A stretch of 34,413 bases of DNA, taken from NCBI GenBank assembly GCA_035541755.1, contig DATKMQ010000140.1, positions 1 through 34,413 on the forward strand, given 5' to 3'. Source of the DNA: Syntrophorhabdaceae bacterium. Lineage in GTDB: Bacteria; Desulfobacterota; Syntrophorhabdia; Syntrophorhabdales; Syntrophorhabdaceae. Below, piece by piece: positions 3,171 to 21,771 of this stretch. The position numbers were made by a program, and so were the translations under genes. Position 1 is the stretch's first letter; each line of letters opens with the position of its first letter. The notes under the pieces are model-generated. The model searched no databases. It saw only the letters and a list, made by a program, of their open reading frames with translations, and had not been told where the DNA came from.

Positions 3171-3617
3171 ATGAAAATATCAACCAAAGGCAGATATGGG
3201 TTACGGGCGCTTATCGACCTGTCCAGGAATGGCAAAAACGGTCTACCCGTTCTCCTTTGCGATATCGCTAAGCGACAGGGCATATCCGACAAGTATCTTG
3301 AACAGATCGCAACACAACTGCACAGGGCAGGCCTTGTAAAGACGGTGCGCGGCAGAAAAGGCGGGTATCTTCTTTCAAGACCGGAAAACCAAATAAAGGT
3401 CAGTGAGGTGATCGAAATTCTTGAGGGGCCCATATGTGTTGTCGACTGCGTGCTGGAGCCCGATTCCTGTTCCAAGGCGGCCCTTTGTTCTGCCAGGGAC
3501 GTTTGGAGTCTCTTAAGCCAAAAGATCGGGGAAGTGCTATCCGGTTACACATTGGCCGATCTGGTGAAACTACAAGAGGAGAAGGCGTCAAAAGAGTACC
3601 CCATGTACTATATCTGA
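3171..3617 (+). CDS. Rrf2-family transcriptional regulator (IscR/CymR-like)
   Basis: This 148-residue regulator has the Rrf2 winged helix: MKISTKGRYGLRALIDL at the start, the recognition region ISDKYLEQIATQLHRAGLVKTVRGRKGGYLL (about 38-68), then the dimerisation helix. Four cysteines cluster at 89, 93, 100 and 106. The last three have the spacing C-x6-C-x5-C, one residue longer than the C-x5-C-x5-C of IscR, so binding of an Fe-S cluster is plausible. CymR-type sulfur regulators lack these ligands. A GGGGAGG site lies 10 bases before the ATG. As the first gene of the methionine/sulfur operon, just behind a promoter carrying a palindrome, it most likely senses Fe-S or cysteine status and represses this operon. 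The signal is not shown by the sequence. Confidence 0.9.
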   Translation: MKISTKGRYGLRALIDLSRNGKNGLPVLLCDIAKRQGISDKYLEQIATQLHRAGLVKTVRGRKGGYLLSRPENQIKVSEVIEILEGPICVVDCVLEPDSCSKAALCSARDVWSLLSQKIGEVLSGYTLADLVKLQEEKASKEYPMYYI

Positions 3618-4946
<1,329 letters not shown>

Positions 4947-4964: not shown

Positions 4965-6104
4965 ATGGTGGACAAAGACAAATATACAGGCGTGGTGGAG
5001 ACACATTACTATACGTTCGCCGATCCGCCCGATGCGCTTAAGCTGGAAAGCGGCGAGAAGCTCGGCCCCATCACCCTTGCCTACGAGACGTACGGGCGTC
5101 TGAATTCTGAAGGGACGAATGCCATTCTTGTCTGTCATGCCTTAACGGGGGATGCACATGCTGCGGGCTTTCACCGGGGGGACAAGAATCCCGGCTGGTG
5201 GGATAACATGATCGGCAGAGGCAAGGCATTCGATACCAACAAGTACTTCGTTATCTGTTCAAACGTGATCGGAGGCTGTAGGGGCTCAACAGGCCCTTCA
5301 TCGATAAATCCCGTAACAGACAAGCCATTCGGTCTCGAGTTTCCCTTGGTCACAATCAGGGATATGGTGAACGCTCAGGGCCGGCTCGTGGCGCATCTTG
5401 GCATCGAGAAACTCTTGAGCGTGGCTGGTGGTTCTATGGGCGGCATGCAGGTGCTCGAGTGGGTAGTATCCCATCCCGAGAAGGTGGCGAGCGCTATCCC
5501 TATCGCCACCACAGCGGTCCATTCACCTCAGCAGATCGCCTTTAACGAGGTGGGCCGGCAGGCCATTATGGCTGACCCAAACTGGAACGAAGGGAACTAT
5601 TATGACCATCGCCTTCCCATGAAAGGCCTGAGTGTGGCGAGAATGGTGGGCCACATTACCTACATGAGCGACGAGTCCATGAAGGCCAAGTTCGGTAGAC
5701 GCTTAAGAGGCGAGAAGCAGCCCTTTAAATTCAGCGCCGATTTTGAAGTAGAGGGGTATCTGCGATACCGGGGGGACAGTTTCATCAAACGCTTTGACCC
5801 TAATTCGTACCTCTACATCACAAAAGCGATCGACAATTTTGATTTGAGTAACGGTCAGGGCCTAAGCAACATGTTACGGGATGTGCGGACCAGATTTCTC
5901 ATCATAGGCTTCAAATCGGACTGGCTTTATCCTTCATATCAATCGCAGGAGATCGCGAAAGCGTGCAAGCGTGCGGGTGCAAGCGCTATTTACTGCGAGC
6001 TCAGTTCAACTTATGGACACGATGCCTTCCTCGTTGAGGTCGATGAGCAGTCCCACCTCGTGAGCCATTTTCTGGACAGGGTATTTGAAGAGGTGCAAAG
6101 GTGA
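4965..6104 (+). CDS. metX: Homoserine O-acetyltransferase
   Basis: This 379-residue alpha/beta-hydrolase-fold enzyme acetylates homoserine with acetyl-CoA to give the substrate of MetY. The nucleophile elbow [13 protein letters not shown] places the catalytic serine at 157. The acid/base residues are in FKSDWLYPS (Asp) and [11 protein letters not shown] (His). [12 protein letters not shown] and [15 protein letters not shown] are family signatures. MetX and MetA-type transferases can use acetyl- or succinyl-CoA, but pairing with metY favours acetyl. It starts 18 bases after metY and its stop overlaps the GTG start of metW by four bases, a typical metX-metW coupling. Confidence 0.95.
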
Positions 6105-6697
6105 CATCCTTAAGTGCCGATCACCAGGCAATCCTCGATTTTGTGACCCCCTCTTCATCGGTCCTTGACTTGGGCTGCGGCAGCGGGGACCTCCTCTTTC
6201 TTCTCGTGAGTCAAAAGAACGTGAAGGCCCAGGGAATCGAGATAGACGACAAGGCTATATTCGAATGCGTGGCCAAAGGGCTCAACGTGTTTCACGACGA
6301 TATCGACACGGGTCTATCCGAGTATCAAGACAAGTCATTCGATTTCGTGGTGCTCAACCAGAGCCTCCAGCAGGTGAAAAAACCCGAGGAGGTACTGAAA
6401 GAGGCATTGAGGGTTGGCCGAAAAGCGATTGTCGGCATCCCCAACTTCGCTCAGCTCCGTGCCCGATGTCAGATCTTCTTTAGAGGCCGAGTGCCCATCA
6501 CACCATCACTTCCTTTTGAATGGTATAATACGCCCAATCTACACTTCCTGAGCATCCTTGACTTTACTGAGTATTGCGCGCGAAGAAACATCGTCATTGA
6601 GACGGCCCGTTTCATGAGCGGAACACTGAGGATTTATATGCTGCCCAATCTTTTTGCGCGGACCGGACTTTTTGTTCTGTCGGGAGCGCTAGCATGA
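6101..6697 (+). CDS. metW: MetW, methyltransferase-like methionine biosynthesis partner of MetX
   Basis: This 198-residue protein has a class I SAM-binding fold: [17 protein letters not shown] (motif I, about 19-35), the acidic GIEIDD after strand 2, and [50 protein letters not shown] is the MetW signature. MetW is regularly paired with MetX in Proteobacteria and is thought to associate with and stimulate it; a methyl substrate is not established. The start is a GTG overlapping the metX stop (GTGA), and its own stop overlaps the next start (ATGA), so translation is coupled on both sides. Confidence 0.92.
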
Positions 6698-7875
6698 AGG
6701 ACGCAGAAAGATATGCGGAGCGGTTGGGCGATGTCACAGCCGCCATGGAAATCTCCGTTGATCGGGCGAAAGACCTGCTTCGTGATGACCAAAGGACTGT
6801 TATCATCGATATCCGGAGTAACGGCCAAACATCGTTGGGCTACATCAAGGGGGCCCGGTTTGTCCCTCTTGGCCTCATTCAGGGCGAGTTAAACAAACTG
6901 GCAGCCGACAAAAGCGTTCCCGTGATCGTGTACTGTGCCTTCGGGGACCGTTCGGTGAGCGCCGCTGAGATGCTCCGAAAAATGGGTTTTATCAATGCCT
7001 GCTCGCTCTCAGGAGGGTTCAATGCTTGGCTTAGTCGGGGCGGTGAGATCGTTACCGATAGTCTCTTTACAATTTCTCAGCTTAACCGGTACAGCCGAAA
7101 CATCCTCCTTGACGAGATCGGTGAACAAGGACAGCGCAAGCTCATGAGCGCCAGGGTCCTTCTTGTGGGCGCAGGGGGCCTTGCTTCTTCGGCGGGGCTT
7201 TATCTTGCTGCCTGCGGGATCGGAACCATAGGCCTTGTGGATTACGACTGGGTAGAGCTTTCGAACCTCAACAGACAGATAATGCACGGAACTGAAGATG
7301 TAGGAAGGCTAAAGGTAGAATCGGGAACCTCAGCCATCAAGAGGATCAACCCTGACGTGAATGTTGTATCCTTCCCCAACCGGCTCACCCCGATGAACGC
7401 CCTTGAGATTATAGAAGACTTTGATATGGTCATGGATGCCTCTGACAACGCAGGCACCAAATTTCTTCTCAACGACGCCTGCTTTTTTGCCGGCAAGCCC
7501 TACGTTTTTGGCGGCGCGGTGGGATTTAGCGGTCAGGCAGGCCTTTTCTGGCCCAAACAGAAAGGCCCGTGTCTCAGGTGTCTTTTTCCTGAGATGCCTT
7601 CGCGTGCGCTCGTGCCAACCTGTAGTGAGGCCGGCGTGCTGGGCGTCGTGCCCGGGCAGATCGGTCTTGTTCAGGCCACAGAAATCATAAAGCTTATTCT
7701 CGGCATAGGGGAACCCATGATCGGCAAGTACTACATCTACAATGCACTCAGCCTCACGGCCAGGTTTATTGTCACGGGCAGGAGCGTCGATTGCCCGCTG
7801 TGCGGGACGAACCCCCGAATCACGAGTCTTTCCGGCGAGGGCAGTGTTTCCTACGAAAACGAGGAATGCGCCTAG
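6694..7875 (+). CDS. Rhodanese-MoeB/ThiF fusion: sulfur-carrier activating E1-like enzyme
   Basis: This 393-residue fusion has an N-terminal rhodanese domain (about 18-118, active-site C81 in VYCAFGDRS) and a C-terminal MoeB/ThiF adenylating domain (about 125-375). The E1 part has the ATP loop GAGGLASS (159-166), LVDYDWVELSNLNRQ, two zinc CxxC pairs (C293/C296 and C367/C370) and the conserved C310 in TCSEAGVLG. Such enzymes adenylate the C-terminal glycine of a MoaD/ThiS-like protein, and the rhodanese donates sulfur to make a thiocarboxylate. The order is the reverse of eukaryotic MOCS3/Uba4, where the rhodanese is C-terminal. Its place directly after metY-metX-metW recalls HcyF of the protein-thiocarboxylate homocysteine pathway. 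Possible partners here are the Gly-Gly protein just downstream or the MoaD at 21.5 kb. Confidence 0.9.
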   Translation: MKDAERYAERLGDVTAAMEISVDRAKDLLRDDQRTVIIDIRSNGQTSLGYIKGARFVPLGLIQGELNKLAADKSVPVIVYCAFGDRSVSAAEMLRKMGFINACSLSGGFNAWLSRGGEIVTDSLFTISQLNRYSRNILLDEIGEQGQRKLMSARVLLVGAGGLASSAGLYLAACGIGTIGLVDYDWVELSNLNRQIMHGTEDVGRLKVESGTSAIKRINPDVNVVSFPNRLTPMNALEIIEDFDMVMDASDNAGTKFLLNDACFFAGKPYVFGGAVGFSGQAGLFWPKQKGPCLRCLFPEMPSRALVPTCSEAGVLGVVPGQIGLVQATEIIKLILGIGEPMIGKYYIYNALSLTARFIVTGRSVDCPLCGTNPRITSLSGEGSVSYENEECA

Positions 7876-7939
7876 ATATATTCAGAGGACAAGATGAGAA
7901 AAGGGCGCAAACGGTTGTGAGATTAAGGAGGTTTTTACA

Positions 7940-8350
7940 ATGAATTGTTCAATGTGGAGCCATGGCGTATGCTCCGAATGTGATCTGTTCAAGGGCAGAG
8001 GCGGTGAGTGCAACGGTTATCCGGATACGGCAGAGCAAGGCAGCCAGGATGTATTTGAGGCGCTCAGTTCGGCCCGTAAACCGGCCGGACGCGTTCAAAA
8101 GAAACAAAAGAAAGAGCCCGACATCAAATTACTGGTTGTGGATGCGGAGAACGATCAAGTGAGGCCGTCGAGCCTCAAGGAAGCGCGCACGTGGGATTGG
8201 AAGAACCCCGAGATCATGAGGATTGTTGACGACTGGCAGATATCGAGCTATGAAATGCTCCTCTTCATTCTTAAGGAGAAAGCGGAAAAAGGCATCAAGG
8301 AAGTGCGGCTCTTCGAAGCGCCCCGATTCATGGTTCTCGCCGGTGGATAG
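7940..8350 (+). CDS. Small Cys-rich protein ending in Gly-Gly, candidate sulfur carrier
   Basis: I do not recognise this 136-residue protein. Its first 30 residues hold four cysteines (C3, C11, C14, C24; GVCSECDLFKGRGGEC) that could bind zinc or an Fe-S cluster. A basic linker follows (about 52-60, VQKKQKKEP). The remaining ~75 residues are predicted by eye as strand (IKLLVVDAEND), a middle segment, one long helix (SYEMLLFILKEKAEKG) and a last strand (EVRLFEAPRF) running into the C-terminus MVLAGG. A terminal Gly-Gly after a final strand is the hallmark of ThiS/MoaD/HcyS/TtuB sulfur carriers. It sits between the E1-rhodanese fusion and a PP-loop sulfurtransferase, which is where such a carrier belongs. 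The start has a very good AAGGAGG site. The carrier role is inference; the Cys-rich N-terminus is not typical. Confidence 0.8.
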   Translation: MNCSMWSHGVCSECDLFKGRGGECNGYPDTAEQGSQDVFEALSSARKPAGRVQKKQKKEPDIKLLVVDAENDQVRPSSLKEARTWDWKNPEIMRIVDDWQISSYEMLLFILKEKAEKGIKEVRLFEAPRFMVLAGG

Positions 8351-8379
8351 GGTAGTGGTCGCCTGCGGTGAAGAGTTTA

Positions 8380-9372
8380 ATGAATAGGAAGGCGATTTCA
8401 CTCCTGTCCCGTGGTCTCGACAGCACGCTCGCCACGAAACTCATTGTCGAGCAGGGTATCGAGGTCGTGGCCCTTCACTTCACTTCCCCATTTTGTACCT
8501 GTTCCAAGGGAAACGAAGGTTGCGGCATTCAGGCCCTAAGATCGGCCGGCGAACTGGGCGTTAAGGTGATCGTACGCCCGAAGGGCATGGAATATCTCAA
8601 CGTAGTCAGGGCACCGAAACACGGCTACGGTAAGAACCTGAATCCGTGCATCGATTGCAGAATATTCATTCTTAAGGAAACGAAAAAAGTCATGGACGAG
8701 ATTGAGGCAAGCTTCGTTATTACCGGAGAGGTTTTGGGACAGCGACCCATGTCTCAACACAGAAATGCCATGAGGCGGATAGAAGAAGAGAGCGGCCTCG
8801 AAGGTCTTATCCTGCGCCCCTTATCGGCGAAACATTTTGACCCCACGTTGCCAGAAATAGCTGGCATCATTGACCGGCAGAAACTCCTCGACATATCAGG
8901 CCGCTCGCGAAAGACCCAGTACGAACTGGTGGATGCCTTTCACCTAAAGGAATTCAGCTGCCCGGGAGGCGGATGTCTCCTGACGGACCCAATTTTTGCG
9001 AGAAAACTCAAAGACCTTTTTGCAAACATCCCTGATTTTACCATGAGGGATGTCAACCTCCTCAAGATTGGAAGACATTTCAGGTTTGATGCATGCACAA
9101 AATTGATAGTGGGCAGAAACCAGGACGAAAACGTGAGACTCAGGGCTTTGCATGCAGTTCCCTCGGCGCTCCTTGAACCCTCGGATTTCAAGGGCCCCAC
9201 GGGACTTCTCTTTGGAAACACACACGATGCTCACCTCAATGTTGCAGCCAATATAATGGCGCACTACGGCAGGAAGGAAACATCCCCCGTTTGGATAGAT
9301 GTAATGAATGGAGCGAAGGCTCGCTACTGCGCAGAGAGAAGGTTCGTTGATTTGGAGAAGTTGGCTATTTGA
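8380..9372 (+). CDS. PP-loop (ThiI/MnmA-like) tRNA sulfurtransferase family protein
   Basis: This ~330-residue protein belongs to the PP-loop ATPases that adenylate uridine for tRNA thiolation. The ATP motif reads LLSRGLDST near residue 10, where the family has SGGxDS. Two cysteine motifs follow: FTSPFCTCSKGNEGCG (about 30-45) and the CxxC of NPCIDCR. A CxxC like this binds the catalytic [4Fe-4S] cluster in TtuA-like enzymes. GEVLGQRPMSQH and LRPLSAKHFDPTLPE are features of the anaerobe-enriched ThiI-like group, and the C-terminal ~100 residues (FRFDACTKLIVGRNQDEN) look like the NFACT-R/DUF814-type RNA-binding domain. A GTG at 8368 is an alternative start; I prefer the ATG at 8380 because the family begins just before the PP-loop. 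The exact tRNA base is unknown. Confidence 0.82.
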   Translation: MNRKAISLLSRGLDSTLATKLIVEQGIEVVALHFTSPFCTCSKGNEGCGIQALRSAGELGVKVIVRPKGMEYLNVVRAPKHGYGKNLNPCIDCRIFILKETKKVMDEIEASFVITGEVLGQRPMSQHRNAMRRIEEESGLEGLILRPLSAKHFDPTLPEIAGIIDRQKLLDISGRSRKTQYELVDAFHLKEFSCPGGGCLLTDPIFARKLKDLFANIPDFTMRDVNLLKIGRHFRFDACTKLIVGRNQDENVRLRALHAVPSALLEPSDFKGPTGLLFGNTHDAHLNVAANIMAHYGRKETSPVWIDVMNGAKARYCAERRFVDLEKLAI

Positions 9373-11540: not shown

Positions 11541-11927
11541 ATGTGGGAATATTCGGATATAGTCAAAGACCATTTTCATAACCCACGTAATGTGGGAGAG
11601 ATAGAGGACCCTGACGGCGTAGCCCAGGTGACGTCCATGGCCTGCGGAGACGTGCTCAAGATTACTTTGAAAGTCGATAAGCACGCAAGGATTACGGACG
11701 CAAGATGCAAGGTAGCGGGGTGTGTCGCCTCCATCGCGTGTGCGTCCGCCCTGACCGAGATGATAAAGGGTGTTACCTTGGAGGAGGCCGTGAGGATCAC
11801 AGATCAGGACATCATCGACTATCTCGGAGGTCTGCCTCCCGGTAAAACGCATGCCCCGGGCATGGCGCAAGAAACCCTGGAAAGAGTTGTCGAGGACGTA
11901 GTAAGGAGACGCCTTGGCACCGATTGA
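11541..11927 (+). CDS. IscU/NifU-like Fe-S scaffold lacking the third cysteine
   Basis: This 128-residue protein has the NifU N-terminal/IscU fold: YSDIVKDHFHNPRNVGEIEDPDG, MACGDVLKITLKVD (C35 and D37, equal to IscU Cys37 and Asp39), KVAGCVASIACASALTEMIKG (C61, equal to Cys63) and LPPGKTHAPGMAQE. In IscU the last motif is LPPxKxHC; here the histidine is kept (H104) but the cluster-ligand cysteine is alanine (A105). Two extra cysteines (C56, C67) lie nearby. It may therefore hold a cluster differently, act as a sulfur or metal chaperone, or be specialised. It lies between xdhC and hydE, and its 3' end contains the ribosome-binding site of hydE (AAGGAG at 11902-11907). Confidence 0.85.
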   Translation: MWEYSDIVKDHFHNPRNVGEIEDPDGVAQVTSMACGDVLKITLKVDKHARITDARCKVAGCVASIACASALTEMIKGVTLEEAVRITDQDIIDYLGGLPPGKTHAPGMAQETLERVVEDVVRRRLGTD

Positions 11928-12989
11928 CCTAAATAACCTTGAAGACCGGAAAATAACGAAGAATGATATGCGCGCCCGTCTCGATCTCACCGACAAGGCA
12001 GACGTAGAAAAACTTTTCGAGGCAGCCTATGCGGTAAAAGCCCGTCACGTGGGGAAGAAGGTCTATTTCAGGGGTATTATAGAATTCAGCAACGTGTGCA
12101 GGAAGAACTGCTTCTATTGCGGCATCAGGAAGGACAACCAGAACCTGACCCGCTATTCCATGGGACTGAACGAGATCGTTGAGAGCGCCCGATGGGCCTA
12201 CGACGCGGGTTATGGCTCCGTCATACTCCAATCGGGGGAAAGGAGGGGTCGGGCCTTCACGGAGTTCATTGAAGATGCCATCAAAGGGATAAAGGAGGCG
12301 ACATCGGGAGGGCTTGGTATTACGCTCTCGGTGGGTGAGCAGGATGAACAGACATACGAACGGTGGTTTGGTGCCGGCGCGCACCGATACCTGCTCAGGA
12401 TAGAGACGTCCAATGAAGACCTTTACCGGCGATTGCACCCGGCCGACCATAGCTTCTTCAAAAGGCTCAAGTGCCTTGAAACCCTGAGTGCCATAGGATA
12501 TCAGACCGGTACGGGGTCATGATCGGCCTTCCCGGTCAGACCGTCGAAGACCTTGTCAACGACATCCTCTTCTTTGAAGAGTTGGACGTAGCCATGATAG
12601 GCATGGGCCCTTATCTTACGCATCAGGATACGCCGCTCTATAAGCGGGGCATGTTAAGCGGTATGTCCAAAGAGGGTTTGCTCGAACTTGCCTTAAAGAT
12701 GATAGCCGTTACAAGGATCTATTTGAAGGATGTGAATATTGCCTCGACCACCGCGCTTCAGGCCGTCGCCCCTACCGGCAGAGAGATGGGGCTTCTCGCG
12801 GGCGCCAATGTGATTATGCCGAATATTACTGACGTGCGGTACCGTAGCCTCTACCAGCTCTACGACGATAAGCCGTGCATTAATGAAACCGGCCAGGCTT
12901 GCCTCAATTGCCTGGACGGTCGAATCCGCTCTATCGGCGAGACCGTGGGCTACGGTGAATGGGGTGATTCGCCCCATTTTACGAAATAA
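11914..12989 (+). pseudogene. hydE: [FeFe]-hydrogenase maturase HydE, split by a one-base frameshift
   Basis: Two adjoining frames together encode a full HydE (about 357 residues), a radical-SAM enzyme that helps build the diiron site of [FeFe]-hydrogenase. The first frame (11914-12522, TTG start, AAGGAG six bases before it) has the radical-SAM motif C62-x3-C66-x2-C69 (NVCRKNCFYCGIR), and GYQTGTG at its end. The second frame (12519-12989) resumes with MIGLPGQTVEDL and ends with the HydE-type second cluster motif C-x7-C-x2-C (PCINETGQACLNC). HydE proteins read GTGFMIGLPGQT, so one base, probably a T after GGGG near 12516-12518, is missing. It may be a real mutation or an assembly error. HydF and HydG are not in the window. 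Confidence 0.88.
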
Positions 12990-13033: not shown

Positions 13034-14167
13034 TTACGATGATGGGTTGTTCTCATCCGGCGGATGAAGCTCGTCGCGAGATAGATTCACGGTACCGCTC
13101 GCTAGCACCGTGTCGTGAGCATAAAACACGACGGCCTGGCCGGGTGTTACGGCCTTCTGGCCCTGTGTAAACCTGACAAGGGCTCCTCCGGCATTATTCG
13201 GCTCAACTGTGCATTCGGCCGGAGCGCTTCTATAACGAACCTGGGCGTGAACAGGGCCTTGCCAAAGGGGATGACTGAAAGGAACAAACCAGTTCATATT
13301 CTCGGCGAGGAGGTCCTTTCGAAAAAGATATTTTTCGGGCCCCGCCACAATTTCATTCTTCGCATGACTGATGTGCAGCACATAGAAAGGTTCTTTCAAT
13401 CCCGGGAGGCCAAGGAAACGCCGTTGTCCTATGGTATAGGAAGGTATGCCCCGATGTACCCCGATTACATTGCCGTGTACGTCCCTTATATTCCCGGGAA
13501 CGCCTTCGTCCTTGAGCAGCATCGTATAATTGTCATATTCGAGGAAATCCTGGCTTTCAGGTTTTTGAAGAAACTCTTGCAGGCCCGACTCGAGGGCTAT
13601 TTGCCTGACCTCTCTCTTCTCATACTCTCCGAGCGGAAAGTGAAGCCTTTCAAGTTGCTCCTGCTTAAGGCGGCTCAAGAAATAGGACTGGTCTTTTTGG
13701 GCATCCATGCCTCGTTTGAGAAGATTGATTCGATAGGCCGGTTCATATGCGACCCTCGCGTAATGTCCCGTTGCAAAGAAGTCGAACTCGATTCCGCTCG
13801 AGAAGGCCTTCTCAAGCAGGGAGCCGAATTTTATCCTGGCGTTGCAGACCACGCAGGGGTTGGGCGTTCTTCCCTGCCCGTATTCCTTTCGAAAATACTC
13901 GATGACCGTCTCCTGGTATTCTTCCCGAAGATCAACGATATAGTGTGGAACGCCTAGTATCCGGGCAGCTTTTTCAGCGTCCGCTATATCGTGGGCTTCA
14001 TTTGGGCCGTAACAGCCTCCCCTCTTGGTGGCATGGGTTTGTGGCCCGTCCCATATCTTCATAGTAAGGCCGATCACATCGTAGCCCTGTTTTTTGAGAA
14101 GATACACGGCCGTGCTTGAATCAATCCCTCCGCTCATCCCCACCGCAATGGTCTTTTTGGTCGACAT
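13034..14167 (-). CDS. mnmA: MnmA-family tRNA-specific 2-thiouridylase paralogue (CxxC type)
   Basis: This 377-residue enzyme is of the MnmA/TrmU family, which puts sulfur on position 2 of the wobble uridine. The PP-loop is GMSGGIDSST (about 10-19), and QKDQSYFLSRL, IPSYTIGQRRFLGLPG and the C-terminal beta-barrel (VRYRSAPAECTVE) are all present. Two catalytic features differ from E. coli MnmA. NPDxLC is here NPCVVC (C105, C108), and the distal catalytic cysteine in the STGICF motif is absent (KPESQDFLEYD). This CxxC form suggests an Fe-S-dependent enzyme rather than the persulfide-relay mechanism. It is the last gene of the minus-strand operon metB/C-like, metC-like, larE, mnmA, and converges on hydE. 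A canonical MnmA may exist elsewhere in the genome. Confidence 0.88.
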   Translation of the reverse strand: MSTKKTIAVGMSGGIDSSTAVYLLKKQGYDVIGLTMKIWDGPQTHATKRGGCYGPNEAHDIADAEKAARILGVPHYIVDLREEYQETVIEYFRKEYGQGRTPNPCVVCNARIKFGSLLEKAFSSGIEFDFFATGHYARVAYEPAYRINLLKRGMDAQKDQSYFLSRLKQEQLERLHFPLGEYEKREVRQIALESGLQEFLQKPESQDFLEYDNYTMLLKDEGVPGNIRDVHGNVIGVHRGIPSYTIGQRRFLGLPGLKEPFYVLHISHAKNEIVAGPEKYLFRKDLLAENMNWFVPFSHPLWQGPVHAQVRYRSAPAECTVEPNNAGGALVRFTQGQKAVTPGQAVVFYAHDTVLASGTVNLSRDELHPPDENNPSS

Positions 14168-14195
14168 GATATCTAATATACCTCAATCAATTTCA

Positions 14196-15011
14196 TCATC
14201 TGTTTTGCTGCGCTAGCGAAATGTTCATACTGCCAGTCTGGTAACCTCGTAGATCGAGAGCGACATGAGCAAACCCACACTGCCTAAACGTGTCCGAGAT
14301 TGCCTCTCCATGCGCAAGGATAACCCTGAAATCTTTCCTAAGAACCTCGATGCGCGCTGTGTCGCCGTGATGTCGCACACGGACCTGCCTGACGCCCAGA
14401 CTTTGCAGGTAATCTTCGGCGCGCTCTATGTTCTTCAGGAGAATTTCGTCAATAGCGGTTCCATACGGGACCCTTGAGGAGAGACAGGCGAAGGAAGGTT
14501 TGTCGTACGTTGGGAGTAAGAGCCGCTTTGACAATCGTCGGATCTCCAGTTTGGTCAGGCCCGCGTCGAGTAGCGGGCTTTTTACGCCCTGTTCGGCGCA
14601 GGCTTTGCGTCCCGGCCTGAAATCATTCACGTCGTCCGCGTTCGACCCTTCCAGAACATGCAGGAAACCTCTCGATGCAGCTATCTCCCTGGCTTTCGTA
14701 AAAAGGTGAGTCTTGCAAAAATAGCAGCGCGACCTGTGGTTTTCGATAAAGCGCGGGTCATCCATCTCGGATGTCTCCGCCACGATATATTGAGCGTCGA
14801 TTTGCAGGGCAAGCCTCTGAGCCTGATCCATCTCCCTAGCCGGACAGGTCGGTGATTTGCCAATGAAGGCCAGAACATTGTCTTTTCCGAGTGTGTCCAC
14901 TGAGACCTTCAGAAGAAAGGTGCTATCCACGCCGCCGGAGAATGCCACCACAACCCTTTGCAGGTCTTTGACAGTTGTCTTCAGGAACTCGTATTTGGCC
15001 TTCATTTTCAT
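14196..15011 (-). CDS. larE: LarE-like ATP-dependent sacrificial sulfur transferase
   Basis: This 271-residue PP-loop protein matches LarE, which adenylates a pyridinium dicarboxylate and gives up its own cysteine sulfur to make the nickel-pincer cofactor of lactate racemase and related enzymes. The ATP motif is AFSGGVDST (SGGVDS at 25-30). RSRCYFCKTHLF (C96, C99) and EGSNADDVNDFRPG are family signatures. The sulfur-donor motif is KPSFACLSSRVPYGT, with its cysteine at residue 176, the same number as in Lactobacillus plantarum LarE. LarB and LarC are not in the window, so it may serve a distant locus or another thiolation. It lies 28 bases before mnmA and 40 bases after the preceding PLP gene in the operon. 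Confidence 0.9.
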   Translation of the reverse strand: MKMKAKYEFLKTTVKDLQRVVVAFSGGVDSTFLLKVSVDTLGKDNVLAFIGKSPTCPAREMDQAQRLALQIDAQYIVAETSEMDDPRFIENHRSRCYFCKTHLFTKAREIAASRGFLHVLEGSNADDVNDFRPGRKACAEQGVKSPLLDAGLTKLEIRRLSKRLLLPTYDKPSFACLSSRVPYGTAIDEILLKNIERAEDYLQSLGVRQVRVRHHGDTARIEVLRKDFRVILAHGEAISDTFRQCGFAHVALDLRGYQTGSMNISLAQQNR

Positions 15012-15051
15012 ACAACCCTCATGCGAAATAAAACCGAGCCAATGCGGTCAG

Positions 15052-16197
15052 CTATTTATATGCGCCACGTATGGCCTGCGCCAGATCCTTGCAAAGATCG
15101 CCTGGATCCTCGAGTCCCACAGAAAGACGGACGAGCCCATCGGTGATGCCCCGGGCATGACGTTCAGGTTCTGGCATGGCGGCGTGTGACATGGTTGCAG
15201 GATAGGAAAGAATGCTTTCAACGCCCCCAAGGCTCACCGCCATGAGTGGAACCTTTACATTTCGTAAAACGTGCTTGGTAATCTTCCTACTCCCCAGGTC
15301 AAAAGAAACCACTGCCCCACCGCCCGATGCCTGGCTGAGATGTATTTCTCTTCCGGGGTGTGAGGGGAGGGTCGGATAATAGACTGCCTTTACCTCCGGT
15401 TGATCCAAAAGCCATTGTGCGATAGTTTCTGCATTTCTCTCTTGCGCTTCCATCCTCGCCGAAAGCGTCTTTATTCCCCTGAGAACGAGCCATGAGTCCT
15501 GAGGCCCTAATATTGCTCCGAAAGTGTTCTGAATCGATTGTATCTTCTTCCCGGTAGTCCTGTCAGCGGCAACCACAAGACCGGCAATAAGATCACTATG
15601 ACCTCCCAGAAACTTCGTGGCGCTGTGAATCACAATGTCAAAGCCGAGTTCCAGGGGCCTCTGGAAATAGGGACTCATAAAGGTATTGTCGATGATCGTG
15701 AGAAGCCCTCTTTTTTTTGCAATGTCCGCAACAGCTCGGATGTCGGTGATCTTCAAAAGAGGGTTCGACGGTGTTTCGGCAAAAATCGCTTTTGTCCCGG
15801 GCAGAAGAGCGCGTTCAATTCTGTCCGGGTCCGTCATGTCGACAAATGTATGCTTGAGGCCCCAGCGATTAAAAAGAGTGTTGAGCGCCCGATACGTTCC
15901 GCCGTAAACGTCTTCAGCCACGATGATATGGTCCCCCGATTTGAACAGGAGAAGGACCGAAGAAATCGCCGCCATGCCCGATGCGAATGCGTAACCCATC
16001 TTGCCGCTCTCGAGCGATGCGACAGTGTGTTCGAGGGCTTCTCTCGTGGGATTCTTCCCCCTGGCGTATTCATAGGGTCCGAACTCGAATGGGTCATCCT
16101 GCGCAAAGGTAGAGACCTGGTATATGGGGATACTCGATGCCCCCGTGTGCGGGTCTCTGTCTTTGCCTGAATGCAATATTTTTGTGCGATAATTCAT
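15052..16197 (-). CDS. Cystathionine gamma-synthase/lyase-family PLP enzyme (copy 2)
   Basis: This 381-residue Cys/Met-metabolism PLP enzyme has KILHSGKDRDPHTGASSIPIY at the start, YEYARGKNPTREALE, ASGMAAISS, DVYGGTYR, and the PLP lysine K195 in HSATKFLGGHSD. The C-terminal SLGGVESILSYPATMSHAAMP is typical of cystathionine gamma-lyase/synthase and beta-lyase. The family members cannot be told apart reliably by eye. With its neighbour at 16217-17365 it could form a reverse transsulfuration pair (homocysteine to cysteine) or carry sulfide-forming activity that feeds LarE and MnmA. It begins 19 bases after the previous gene in the operon. Confidence 0.9.
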   Translation of the reverse strand: MNYRTKILHSGKDRDPHTGASSIPIYQVSTFAQDDPFEFGPYEYARGKNPTREALEHTVASLESGKMGYAFASGMAAISSVLLLFKSGDHIIVAEDVYGGTYRALNTLFNRWGLKHTFVDMTDPDRIERALLPGTKAIFAETPSNPLLKITDIRAVADIAKKRGLLTIIDNTFMSPYFQRPLELGFDIVIHSATKFLGGHSDLIAGLVVAADRTTGKKIQSIQNTFGAILGPQDSWLVLRGIKTLSARMEAQERNAETIAQWLLDQPEVKAVYYPTLPSHPGREIHLSQASGGGAVVSFDLGSRKITKHVLRNVKVPLMAVSLGGVESILSYPATMSHAAMPEPERHARGITDGLVRLSVGLEDPGDLCKDLAQAIRGAYK

Positions 16198-16216
16198 ATG
16201 TGCTCCTTGAAATTGC

Positions 16217-17365
16217 TTAGCCCTCTATGGCCGACTTCAGATCTTCAATGAGGTCTTCTACCGCCTCCGCACCCACCGAGAGGCGGATAAGACAATCATT
16301 GATGCCGATTCTTGTTCTCACGTCGGGATTCATATCGGCGTGAGTTTGTACCGCGGGGAAGGTAATCAGAGACTCCACACCGCCCAGACTCTCCGCAAAG
16401 ATAAAAACCTCAACGTTAGACAGTATCTTCGGCACAAGGGTGGGATCGTCAACTTCAAACGATACGACTGACCCGAAGCCTGTAGACTGTGCCTTGAGCA
16501 GCGTATGGCCGGGGTGGTCCGTGAGCCCAGGGTAGAAGACCTTTCTGACCCTCGGGTGCCCCTTAAGCCACTCGGCAATTTCCTGTGCGTTCTTTTGCTG
16601 GCGCTCCATGCGAAGAGAAAGTGTCTTGAGGCCTCTTAAAACGAGCCAGGAGTCCCAAGGCCCAAGGGTCGCCCCCGTGGCATTCTGATAGAAGTGAAGC
16701 TTCTCTCCGAGTTTTTCAGTGCGTGCCACAACGAGTCCTGCCAGGACATCGTTGTGGCCGGACAGATATTTCGTCGCGCTGTAGGCCACTATATCCGCCC
16801 CCAGGCTGATGGGTCGCTGAAAATAGGGTGTCAGAAAGGTATTGTCCACAATGGTGAGGACGTTGCGGCCCCCTGCCATTCTGCAGATTTCGGGGATATT
16901 GGCTATCCTCTGGAGCGGATTTGTGGGGCTCTCGAGCAATATGGCCCGGATGTTCTTACCCAATACCTTGTTTACCTCATCAGTCTGTGATGTATCGATG
17001 TACAAGAACTCGATCCCGAGAGGACGATAGACCTTATCGAGGAGCCGGCATGTGCCGCCATAGGGATCTTCCGTGACTGCAACAATATCGCCCGACCTAA
17101 AAAGTTTCATGACGCAGTCGAGGGCCGCCATACCTGAGGAGAAGGCTAAGGCTCTTTCGCCTCCTTCGAGACTTGCAATAGCCTTCTCAAGCACACGACG
17201 GGTGGGATTTTCACTCCTTGAGTAGTCGAACCCCGTTGTCTCTCCCAGAGAAGGGTGAGCAAACGTGCTTGTCTGGTATACTGGCGCGGAAACGGCCCCC
17301 GTGGCCTTATCCTGGTCAACCCCGGCATGTATGAGCGCGGTTTCTATTTTTACGCCTTCCTTCAC
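16217..17365 (-). CDS. Cystathionine gamma-synthase/lyase-family PLP enzyme (copy 1)
   Basis: This 382-residue paralogue of the next gene has IETALIHAGVDQDKATGAVS, FDYSRSENPTRRVLE, SSGMAALDC, DPYGGTCRLLD and the PLP lysine K199 in AYSATKYLSGHND, then SLGGVESLITFPAVQTHADM. The substitution pattern is close to cystathionine gamma-lyase/synthase, but I cannot fix the reaction. The start is GTG at 17365, with GAGGG five bases upstream. It is the first gene of the minus-strand operon that continues with the second PLP enzyme, larE and mnmA. Its upstream region contains a candidate promoter and a perfect 12-base palindrome. Confidence 0.9.
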   Translation of the reverse strand: MKEGVKIETALIHAGVDQDKATGAVSAPVYQTSTFAHPSLGETTGFDYSRSENPTRRVLEKAIASLEGGERALAFSSGMAALDCVMKLFRSGDIVAVTEDPYGGTCRLLDKVYRPLGIEFLYIDTSQTDEVNKVLGKNIRAILLESPTNPLQRIANIPEICRMAGGRNVLTIVDNTFLTPYFQRPISLGADIVAYSATKYLSGHNDVLAGLVVARTEKLGEKLHFYQNATGATLGPWDSWLVLRGLKTLSLRMERQQKNAQEIAEWLKGHPRVRKVFYPGLTDHPGHTLLKAQSTGFGSVVSFEVDDPTLVPKILSNVEVFIFAESLGGVESLITFPAVQTHADMNPDVRTRIGINDCLIRLSVGAEAVEDLIEDLKSAIEG

Positions 17366-21546: not shown

Positions 21547-21771
21547 CTAGCCCCCTCCTATGGGAGGGAAAAGCGCCAGCGTGTCCCCATGGGTGAGCTT
21601 GGCGTCGGTTAGCCTGTGATGACCGTTAATAAAGACCAGAGTGACCTCGGTATCGGGTATACCGACCCTCTGAATCATCTCGCCTACCGTTGTGCCTTCC
21701 GGAACGTCAACCTCTTTTATGTCGAACCGGTCTTTGCGTAACGTGGCAAATAGTTTGACTGTAACATGCAT
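21547..21771 (-). CDS. MoaD/ThiS-type sulfur-carrier protein of the AOR operon
   Basis: This 74-residue ubiquitin-fold protein (MHVTVKLFATLRKD, VDVPEGTTVGEMIQRVGI, VFINGHHRLTDAKLTHGDTLALFPP) ends in IGGG, the Gly-Gly terminus that is adenylated and turned into a thiocarboxylate. MoaD supplies dithiolene sulfur for molybdopterin, and MoaD-like genes commonly accompany AOR genes, whose enzyme needs a tungsten bis-pterin cofactor. It lies 10 bases after the tandem beta-grasp gene and is the last gene of the AOR operon. The only E1-like activator in the window is the rhodanese-E1 fusion at 6694-7875. Confidence 0.9.
   Translation of the reverse strand: MHVTVKLFATLRKDRFDIKEVDVPEGTTVGEMIQRVGIPDTEVTLVFINGHHRLTDAKLTHGDTLALFPPIGGG

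Follow-up and report, generated by a model that had tools for sequence, protein, structure and literature searches.

A putative new family of sulfur carrier proteins encoded beside a rhodanese-E1 in a methionine operon of Syntrophorhabdaceae

The window analyzed here, a stretch of 34,413 nucleotides from a Syntrophorhabdaceae genome (G000), carries on one strand an operon that runs from an Rrf2-family regulator through metY, metX and metW to a gene for a rhodanese-E1 fusion, with a small open reading frame ending in Gly-Gly directly after it. The genes and features on which the analysis is based are the following:

3171-3617, forward strand: Rrf2-family regulator, CymR/IscR-like (TIGR00738 above cut-off; CymR model at 1.8e-38, below cut-off)
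3648-4946, forward strand: MetY, O-acetylhomoserine sulfhydrylase, the proposed sulfur acceptor enzyme (TIGR01326 above cut-off)
4965-6104, forward strand: MetX homoserine O-acyltransferase (NF001209 above cut-off)
6101-6697, forward strand: MetW (PF07021, 7.8e-67)
6694-7875, forward strand: rhodanese-E1 fusion of 393 aa (PF00581, 1.2e-16; PF00899 ThiF, 3.6e-75; NCBIfam MoeB/UbaA-type)
within 6694-7875, forward strand: rhodanese domain at aa 22-114, with Cys81 in a CAFGDRS loop, and ThiF/MoeB E1 domain at aa 133-367 (Pfam)
7621-7623, forward strand: TGT codon of the E1 catalytic Cys310, in VPT-C-SEAGVLG (position of an in-frame TGA in relatives)
7925-7931, forward strand: perfect Shine-Dalgarno sequence AAGGAGG, 8 nt 5' of the carrier ATG (read directly)
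7940-8350, forward strand: proposed sulfur-carrier gene, 136 aa, C-terminus ...EAPRFMVLAGG followed by the stop codon (ORF and homologues)
7940-8011, forward strand: optional Cys-rich N-terminal module with C3, C11, C14 and C24 (alignments)
8114-8347, forward strand: predicted beta-grasp domain of the ubiquitin-like class, ending in a flexible GG tail (AlphaFold2)
8368-9372, forward strand: PP-loop protein, ThiI-like with NFACT-R (PF02568 ThiI, 7.9e-11; PF18297 NFACT-R_2)

Further genes of sulfur metabolism are densely packed near the operon on the reverse strand (13034-17365), where MnmA, LarE and two PLP genes of the cystathionine lyase/synthase type are encoded. Between the two regions, a HydE-like radical SAM gene (11914-12989, forward strand) appears to be split into two overlapping frames of 202 and 156 aa, possibly by a frameshift or an assembly error; its homologue at locus L152 is intact with 384 aa.

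The proposed carrier gene starts 64 bp past the end of the rhodanese-E1 gene. A preliminary description of this DNA had drawn attention to it as a small Cys-rich frame with a LAGG end, lying between an E1-rhodanese and a PP-loop gene, and the ORF itself, Pfam and the homologues all bear this out. Among the small ORFs of the window (50-170 aa), the only other one ending in GG encodes a canonical ThiS/MoaD-type carrier of 74 aa with the C-terminus FPPIGGG (21547-21771, reverse strand). The 136-aa protein matched nothing in Pfam or NCBIfam at E<=1 and nothing in the PDB by sequence, where a search with the family alignment likewise returned only noise. Single-sequence searches found nothing in genome_contigs or viral_contigs, a tblastn search of plasmids was also empty, and the alignment-based search gave no match in viral contigs. 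Relatives were first obtained by searching 39 genomes of the window's taxonomic family, in which several other genera were positive; a profile search then extended the group to two further families, one in the order and one in the phylum, and, via genome_contigs, to a Dehalococcoidia MAG. The genomes surveyed are mostly draft MAGs. In all, the family comprises 17 distinct places (the window and 16 homologous ones), all of them aligned through the C-terminus, and its hosts are Syntrophorhabdus/Syntrophus-like MAGs, with Syntrophorhabdus sp. PtaU1.Bin058 and Syntrophus sp. SW.010 among the named records, plus the one Dehalococcoidia MAG. The reading frame with its GG end is more than a chance occurrence and belongs to a conserved family. 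At locus L011 the gene is present as two tandem overlapping copies (7224-7839) beside a selenocysteine-type rhodanese-E1, and genome G038 holds a decayed remnant with an internal TAG (L040; C112:6725-6841).

Conservation within the family is concentrated in the last ~75 residues, where WDW, an R, E.P and the GG tail are invariant or nearly so and the tail follows the consensus ...RFMxL[AS]GG. The expectation that the terminal Gly-Gly would be conserved holds for 14 of the 17 members, which end exactly in GG with no residue beyond it, and fails for three, one ending in ...NGS and two, both from a single genome, in ...FYMGC; none of these three adjoins a rhodanese-E1. The paralogues of genome G042 (L037, 112-366; L038, 101-625) have lost the GG and end in ...EAPFYMGC, and one of them retains the Cys-rich N-terminus. 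That N-terminus had been taken to set the carrier apart as a new type, but it does not define the family: it is absent from about half of the members, and small proteins of 61-95 aa that stand alone have its motif too. In the N-terminally extended relatives the motif reads CPF-x4/5-C-x2-C-x2-YRGRH, of which the window form is a degenerate version with a fourth Cys. Judging from the alignments, the Cys-rich segment is an add-on module and not part of the carrier core, and it perhaps binds metal. Stand-alone small proteins with CP[FI]-x5-C-x2-C-x2-[YF]RGRH are encoded at loci L137, L138, L139, L145 and L148; downstream of those at L138 and L139 there is a CoxM-like gene, recognized by eye as an apparent molybdenum hydroxylase FAD subunit.

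An AlphaFold2 model of the C-terminal domain, for which nine members of the family served as input, reached a mean pLDDT of 87.6 and a pTM of 0.75, the tail being its uncertain part. Nearly all of its top structure matches are ubiquitin-like beta-grasp folds, namely PB1, SUMO, ubiquitin, PI3K Ras-binding and UBX/UBL domains. The scores are moderate (best Z 7.6, for the PB1 domain 4mjs; Foldseek E 0.015), and the tail of the model aligns to the C-terminal Gly-Gly region of SUMO (e.g., 4wjp, model 1-77 versus chain 19-97). The domain is therefore predicted to be a ubiquitin-like beta-grasp, as the preliminary description had supposed, with the support coming from the consistency of the class more than from any single match. 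ThiS or MoaD chains are not among the structure matches listed, which is not evidence against kinship, and hhalign of the carrier family against 14 ThiS/MoaD sequences of the same genomes gave a probability of 0.3, i.e., no link. Lacking this sequence link, the carrier is not filed in PF02597. A ubiquitin/SUMO-like fold with a GG tail could also belong to a protein modifier that the E1 attaches to target lysines, and archaeal SAMPs and Urm1 act both as sulfur carriers and as modifiers. However, in 6/6 genomes the E1 found beside the carrier has a sulfur donor, the rhodanese, fused to it, the partner enzymes belong to sulfur amino acid metabolism, and no E2-, E3- or protease-like neighbor was seen at the carrier loci, so that we consider protein modification highly improbable.

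The genomic context of the family points to a function in sulfur amino acid synthesis. Seven of the 17 places, from six genomes (the window, L011 with its two copies, L012, L013, L015 and L017), have rhodanese-E1 immediately beside the carrier, and at about half of the places no rhodanese-E1 is in view. The fullest arrangement, at L017, places Sec-E1, carrier, CysK, Rrf2, MetY, MetX and MetW on a single strand, whereas at L018 CysK is followed by the carrier. At L039 the homocysteine-biosynthesis enzyme HcyBio, a NIL-ferredoxin and a rhodanese-less E1 come first; CysK, a probable CysE of the hexapeptide acyltransferase type, a MOSC/CoA-binding protein and finally the carrier follow. Across the 39 family genomes, an intact carrier is present in seven (the G038 remnant being left out), rhodanese-E1 in ten and MetY in ten. 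All seven carrier genomes have rhodanese-E1, compared with three of the remaining 32 (Fisher p 8e-6, kinship ignored), and the same counts and p value, with the same disregard of kinship, apply to MetY. The co-occurrence with the E1 and the link to MetY had both been anticipated, while the additional link to CysK had not been foreseen.

MetY operons also exist without this equipment. Genome G026, from the window's own genus, carries CysK-Rrf2-MetY-MetX-MetW and genome G015 carries Rrf2-MetY-MetX-MetW, both without rhodanese-E1 and without the carrier, from which we conclude that the E1-carrier pair is an optional module on the sulfur amino acid operon. For the operons that lack the pair, free sulfide is probably sufficient. 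In view of the G026 operon, the earlier proposal that sulfur is assimilated through a thiocarboxylate instead of free sulfide stands unproven.

The PP-loop gene was considered as a partner of the carrier and rejected, as it occurs in 35/39 family genomes independently of carrier presence; its product is probably a THUMP-less tRNA thiolase. With it falls the suggested parallel to TtuA-TtuB, in which the PP-loop enzyme had been counted as a member of the unit. The TtuA/TtuB/TtuC/TtuD system of tRNA thiolation, as it is outlined in PMC6225789 and PMC7138817, shares with the window an E1, a rhodanese and a GG carrier beside a PP-loop enzyme. In contrast to TtuA, the PP-loop enzyme here is of the ThiI/NFACT-R type and is uncoupled from the carrier across genomes. 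A broader version of this idea is that the same E1 charges the carrier for a sink other than MetY and CysK, which could be molybdenum/tungsten cofactor, thiamin, or tRNA via the PP-loop enzyme. The PP-loop gene does come next after the carrier in the window, and the family member at L035 (2547-5572) has a gene pair for ferredoxin and aldehyde:ferredoxin oxidoreductase ~200 bp upstream of it. However, the common neighbors of the carrier are metY, cysK, Rrf2 and E1, the near-universal PP-loop gene is distributed independently of it, and the carrier genomes already own ThiS/MoaD-type carriers; another sink is thus unlikely.

The protein that would activate the carrier is a rhodanese-E1 of the MoeZ/Uba4 type, with a ThiF domain, a rhodanese domain and the catalytic Cys, and the active-site residues of both domains are present in the sequence of the window fusion. 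In MoeZ and Uba4 the E1 domain comes first and the rhodanese second; the window fusion has the reverse order, rhodanese first. In all five relatives with a side-by-side pair, a TGA stands exactly at the codon of the E1 catalytic Cys, and when all rhodanese-E1 genes found are counted, the TGA occurs at this codon in 11 genes and one fragment. Since the window copy happens to have Cys, the selenocysteine codon escaped the preliminary description. The rhodanese-E1 of G023 has Ser (AGT) rather than Cys at the catalytic codon. Counted among the copies with TGA at the catalytic codon is another rhodanese-E1 of the window's genome (L078, 7732-8880; G000 C93:86740-87855), which has no gene of the new carrier family beside it. 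Past the TGA the E1 frame runs on, and its C-terminal piece shows 44-61% identity. About 15 nt 3' of the TGA lies a SECIS-like stem of the type GUCCUGGG-loop-CCCGGGAC, whose stability exceeds the average for synonymous recodings in 10/10 genes (fraction at least as stable, 0-0.13) and over which synonymous sites are more conserved than upstream. Of 12 genomes tested, 11 have SelB above cut-off and nine have tRNA-Sec above cut-off, G000 being included in both counts; in G031 and G043 the Sec-E1 is present and tRNA-Sec is below cut-off. A pseudogene or sequencing error as the origin of the TGA was rejected in view of its recurrence at one codon in the 11 genes and the fragment, the homologous frame after it, the SECIS-like stem and the Sec machinery. 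In the E1 tree, which is small and rooted with distant outgroups, the window Cys copy is nested among Sec copies, and Cys at its catalytic site is therefore probably secondary.

A selenocysteine E1 as such is not new, since Sec-containing MoeB has been predicted in metagenomes, with 11 sequences (COG0476) in the Sargasso Sea (PMC1088965) and 19 in the GOS data (PMC2398784), and also appears in selenoprotein lists (PMC9312934, PMC13188914). Sec-MoeB has thus been a predicted selenoprotein since 2005, and the entries for it in these four sources give no experimentally tested role. The predictions in PMC1088965 and PMC2398784 share with our genes a UGA-coded Sec in a ThiF/MoeB-family E1 and a downstream stem-loop; their accounts of Sec-MoeB leave the position of the Sec unstated and do not mention a carrier, a rhodanese fusion or a sulfur amino acid operon.

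Two further loci place a canonical carrier in the same setting. At L128 (genome G044), CysK and Rrf2 are followed by a PF02597-type carrier and a Sec rhodanese-E1, and at L081 (genome G025) a 71-aa ThiS-family carrier comes after CysK, beside a Sec rhodanese-E1. In these gene orders, canonical carriers fill the slot held elsewhere by the new protein. The L128 carrier ends in FMMLVAGG, near to the RFMMLSGG tails of the new family, a likeness that may reflect recognition by the E1. The occupation of this slot also bears on the idea that the 136-aa protein regulates the Cys/Met enzymes or serves them as a scaffold, with a metal-binding N-terminus and an incidental GG. Such a role would suit the Rrf2/CymR-like regulator nearby, the presence of the Cys-rich N-terminus in about half of the members and the existence of three members without GG. 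It is at odds with the evident carriers at L128 and L081, with the absence of the N-terminus from the other members and with the retention of GG in the large majority, distant members and that of another phylum included, and we regard it as distinctly unlikely.

The proposed system resembles two known ones. With HcyF-HcyS-MetY it has in common an E1-type enzyme, a GG carrier and MetY for methionine synthesis. HcyS has an extra C-terminal residue and a protease, HcyD, whereas the new carrier has a free GG end and no detectable similarity to ThiS. The E1 differs as well, being fused to rhodanese and carrying Sec in relatives, and MetY is of another subfamily: the window enzyme is nearer to ordinary sulfhydrylases (best 7kb0, 8sf5 and 2ctz) than to chain 3ri6, which we take to be the Wolinella MetY. 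The second system is CysO/CysM/MoeZ of Mycobacterium tuberculosis, for which PMC6225789 cites Burns et al. (2005). It reportedly consists of a MoeZ-type rhodanese-fused E1, the GG carrier CysO and the PALP cysteine synthase CysM. The proposed system would share with it such an E1 charging a GG carrier that serves a cysteine synthase of the PALP kind; here, in contrast, the carrier is from another family, the partner is of the CysK type and the E1 of relatives contains Sec.

Taken together, the best explanation, and one that we consider likely, is that the 136-aa protein is a sulfur carrier of a new family that is charged by the neighboring rhodanese-E1 and feeds MetY for homocysteine and CysK for cysteine. 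In the predicted structure, the ubiquitin-like C-terminal domain would present the flexible tail. By analogy with MoeZ/CysO and HcyF/HcyS, the E1 domain would adenylate the terminal glycine, and the catalytic Cys (Sec in most relatives), together with a persulfide on the fused rhodanese, would convert the acyl-adenylate to a thiocarboxylate; the charged carrier would then pass its sulfur on to PLP enzymes encoded in the same operons. An overview of the chemistry of thiocarboxylate carriers is given in PMC6225789. We lean, with less assurance, toward the fuller reading that a beta-grasp carrier without traceable kinship to ThiS/MoaD took over the slot in the Cys/Met operon and is charged by a rhodanese-E1 with catalytic Sec.

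In the account of PMC6225789, thiocarboxylate carriers for Cys/Met synthesis are on record for very few bacteria, namely M. tuberculosis and W. succinogenes. If the interpretation is correct, another carrier family would serve this synthesis, and its slot would be open to an unrelated-looking ubiquitin-like protein. The selenocysteine E1 would be tied to a defined pathway, giving the long-predicted Sec-MoeB selenoproteins a role, and activation of the carrier would proceed by way of selenium. With its natural Cys copy, the window forms with the Sec copies of its relatives a ready pair for asking what selenium contributes. Most likely, Syntrophorhabdaceae and their relatives hold a new carrier family that does a known kind of job, in most relatives with an unusual, selenium-dependent partner.
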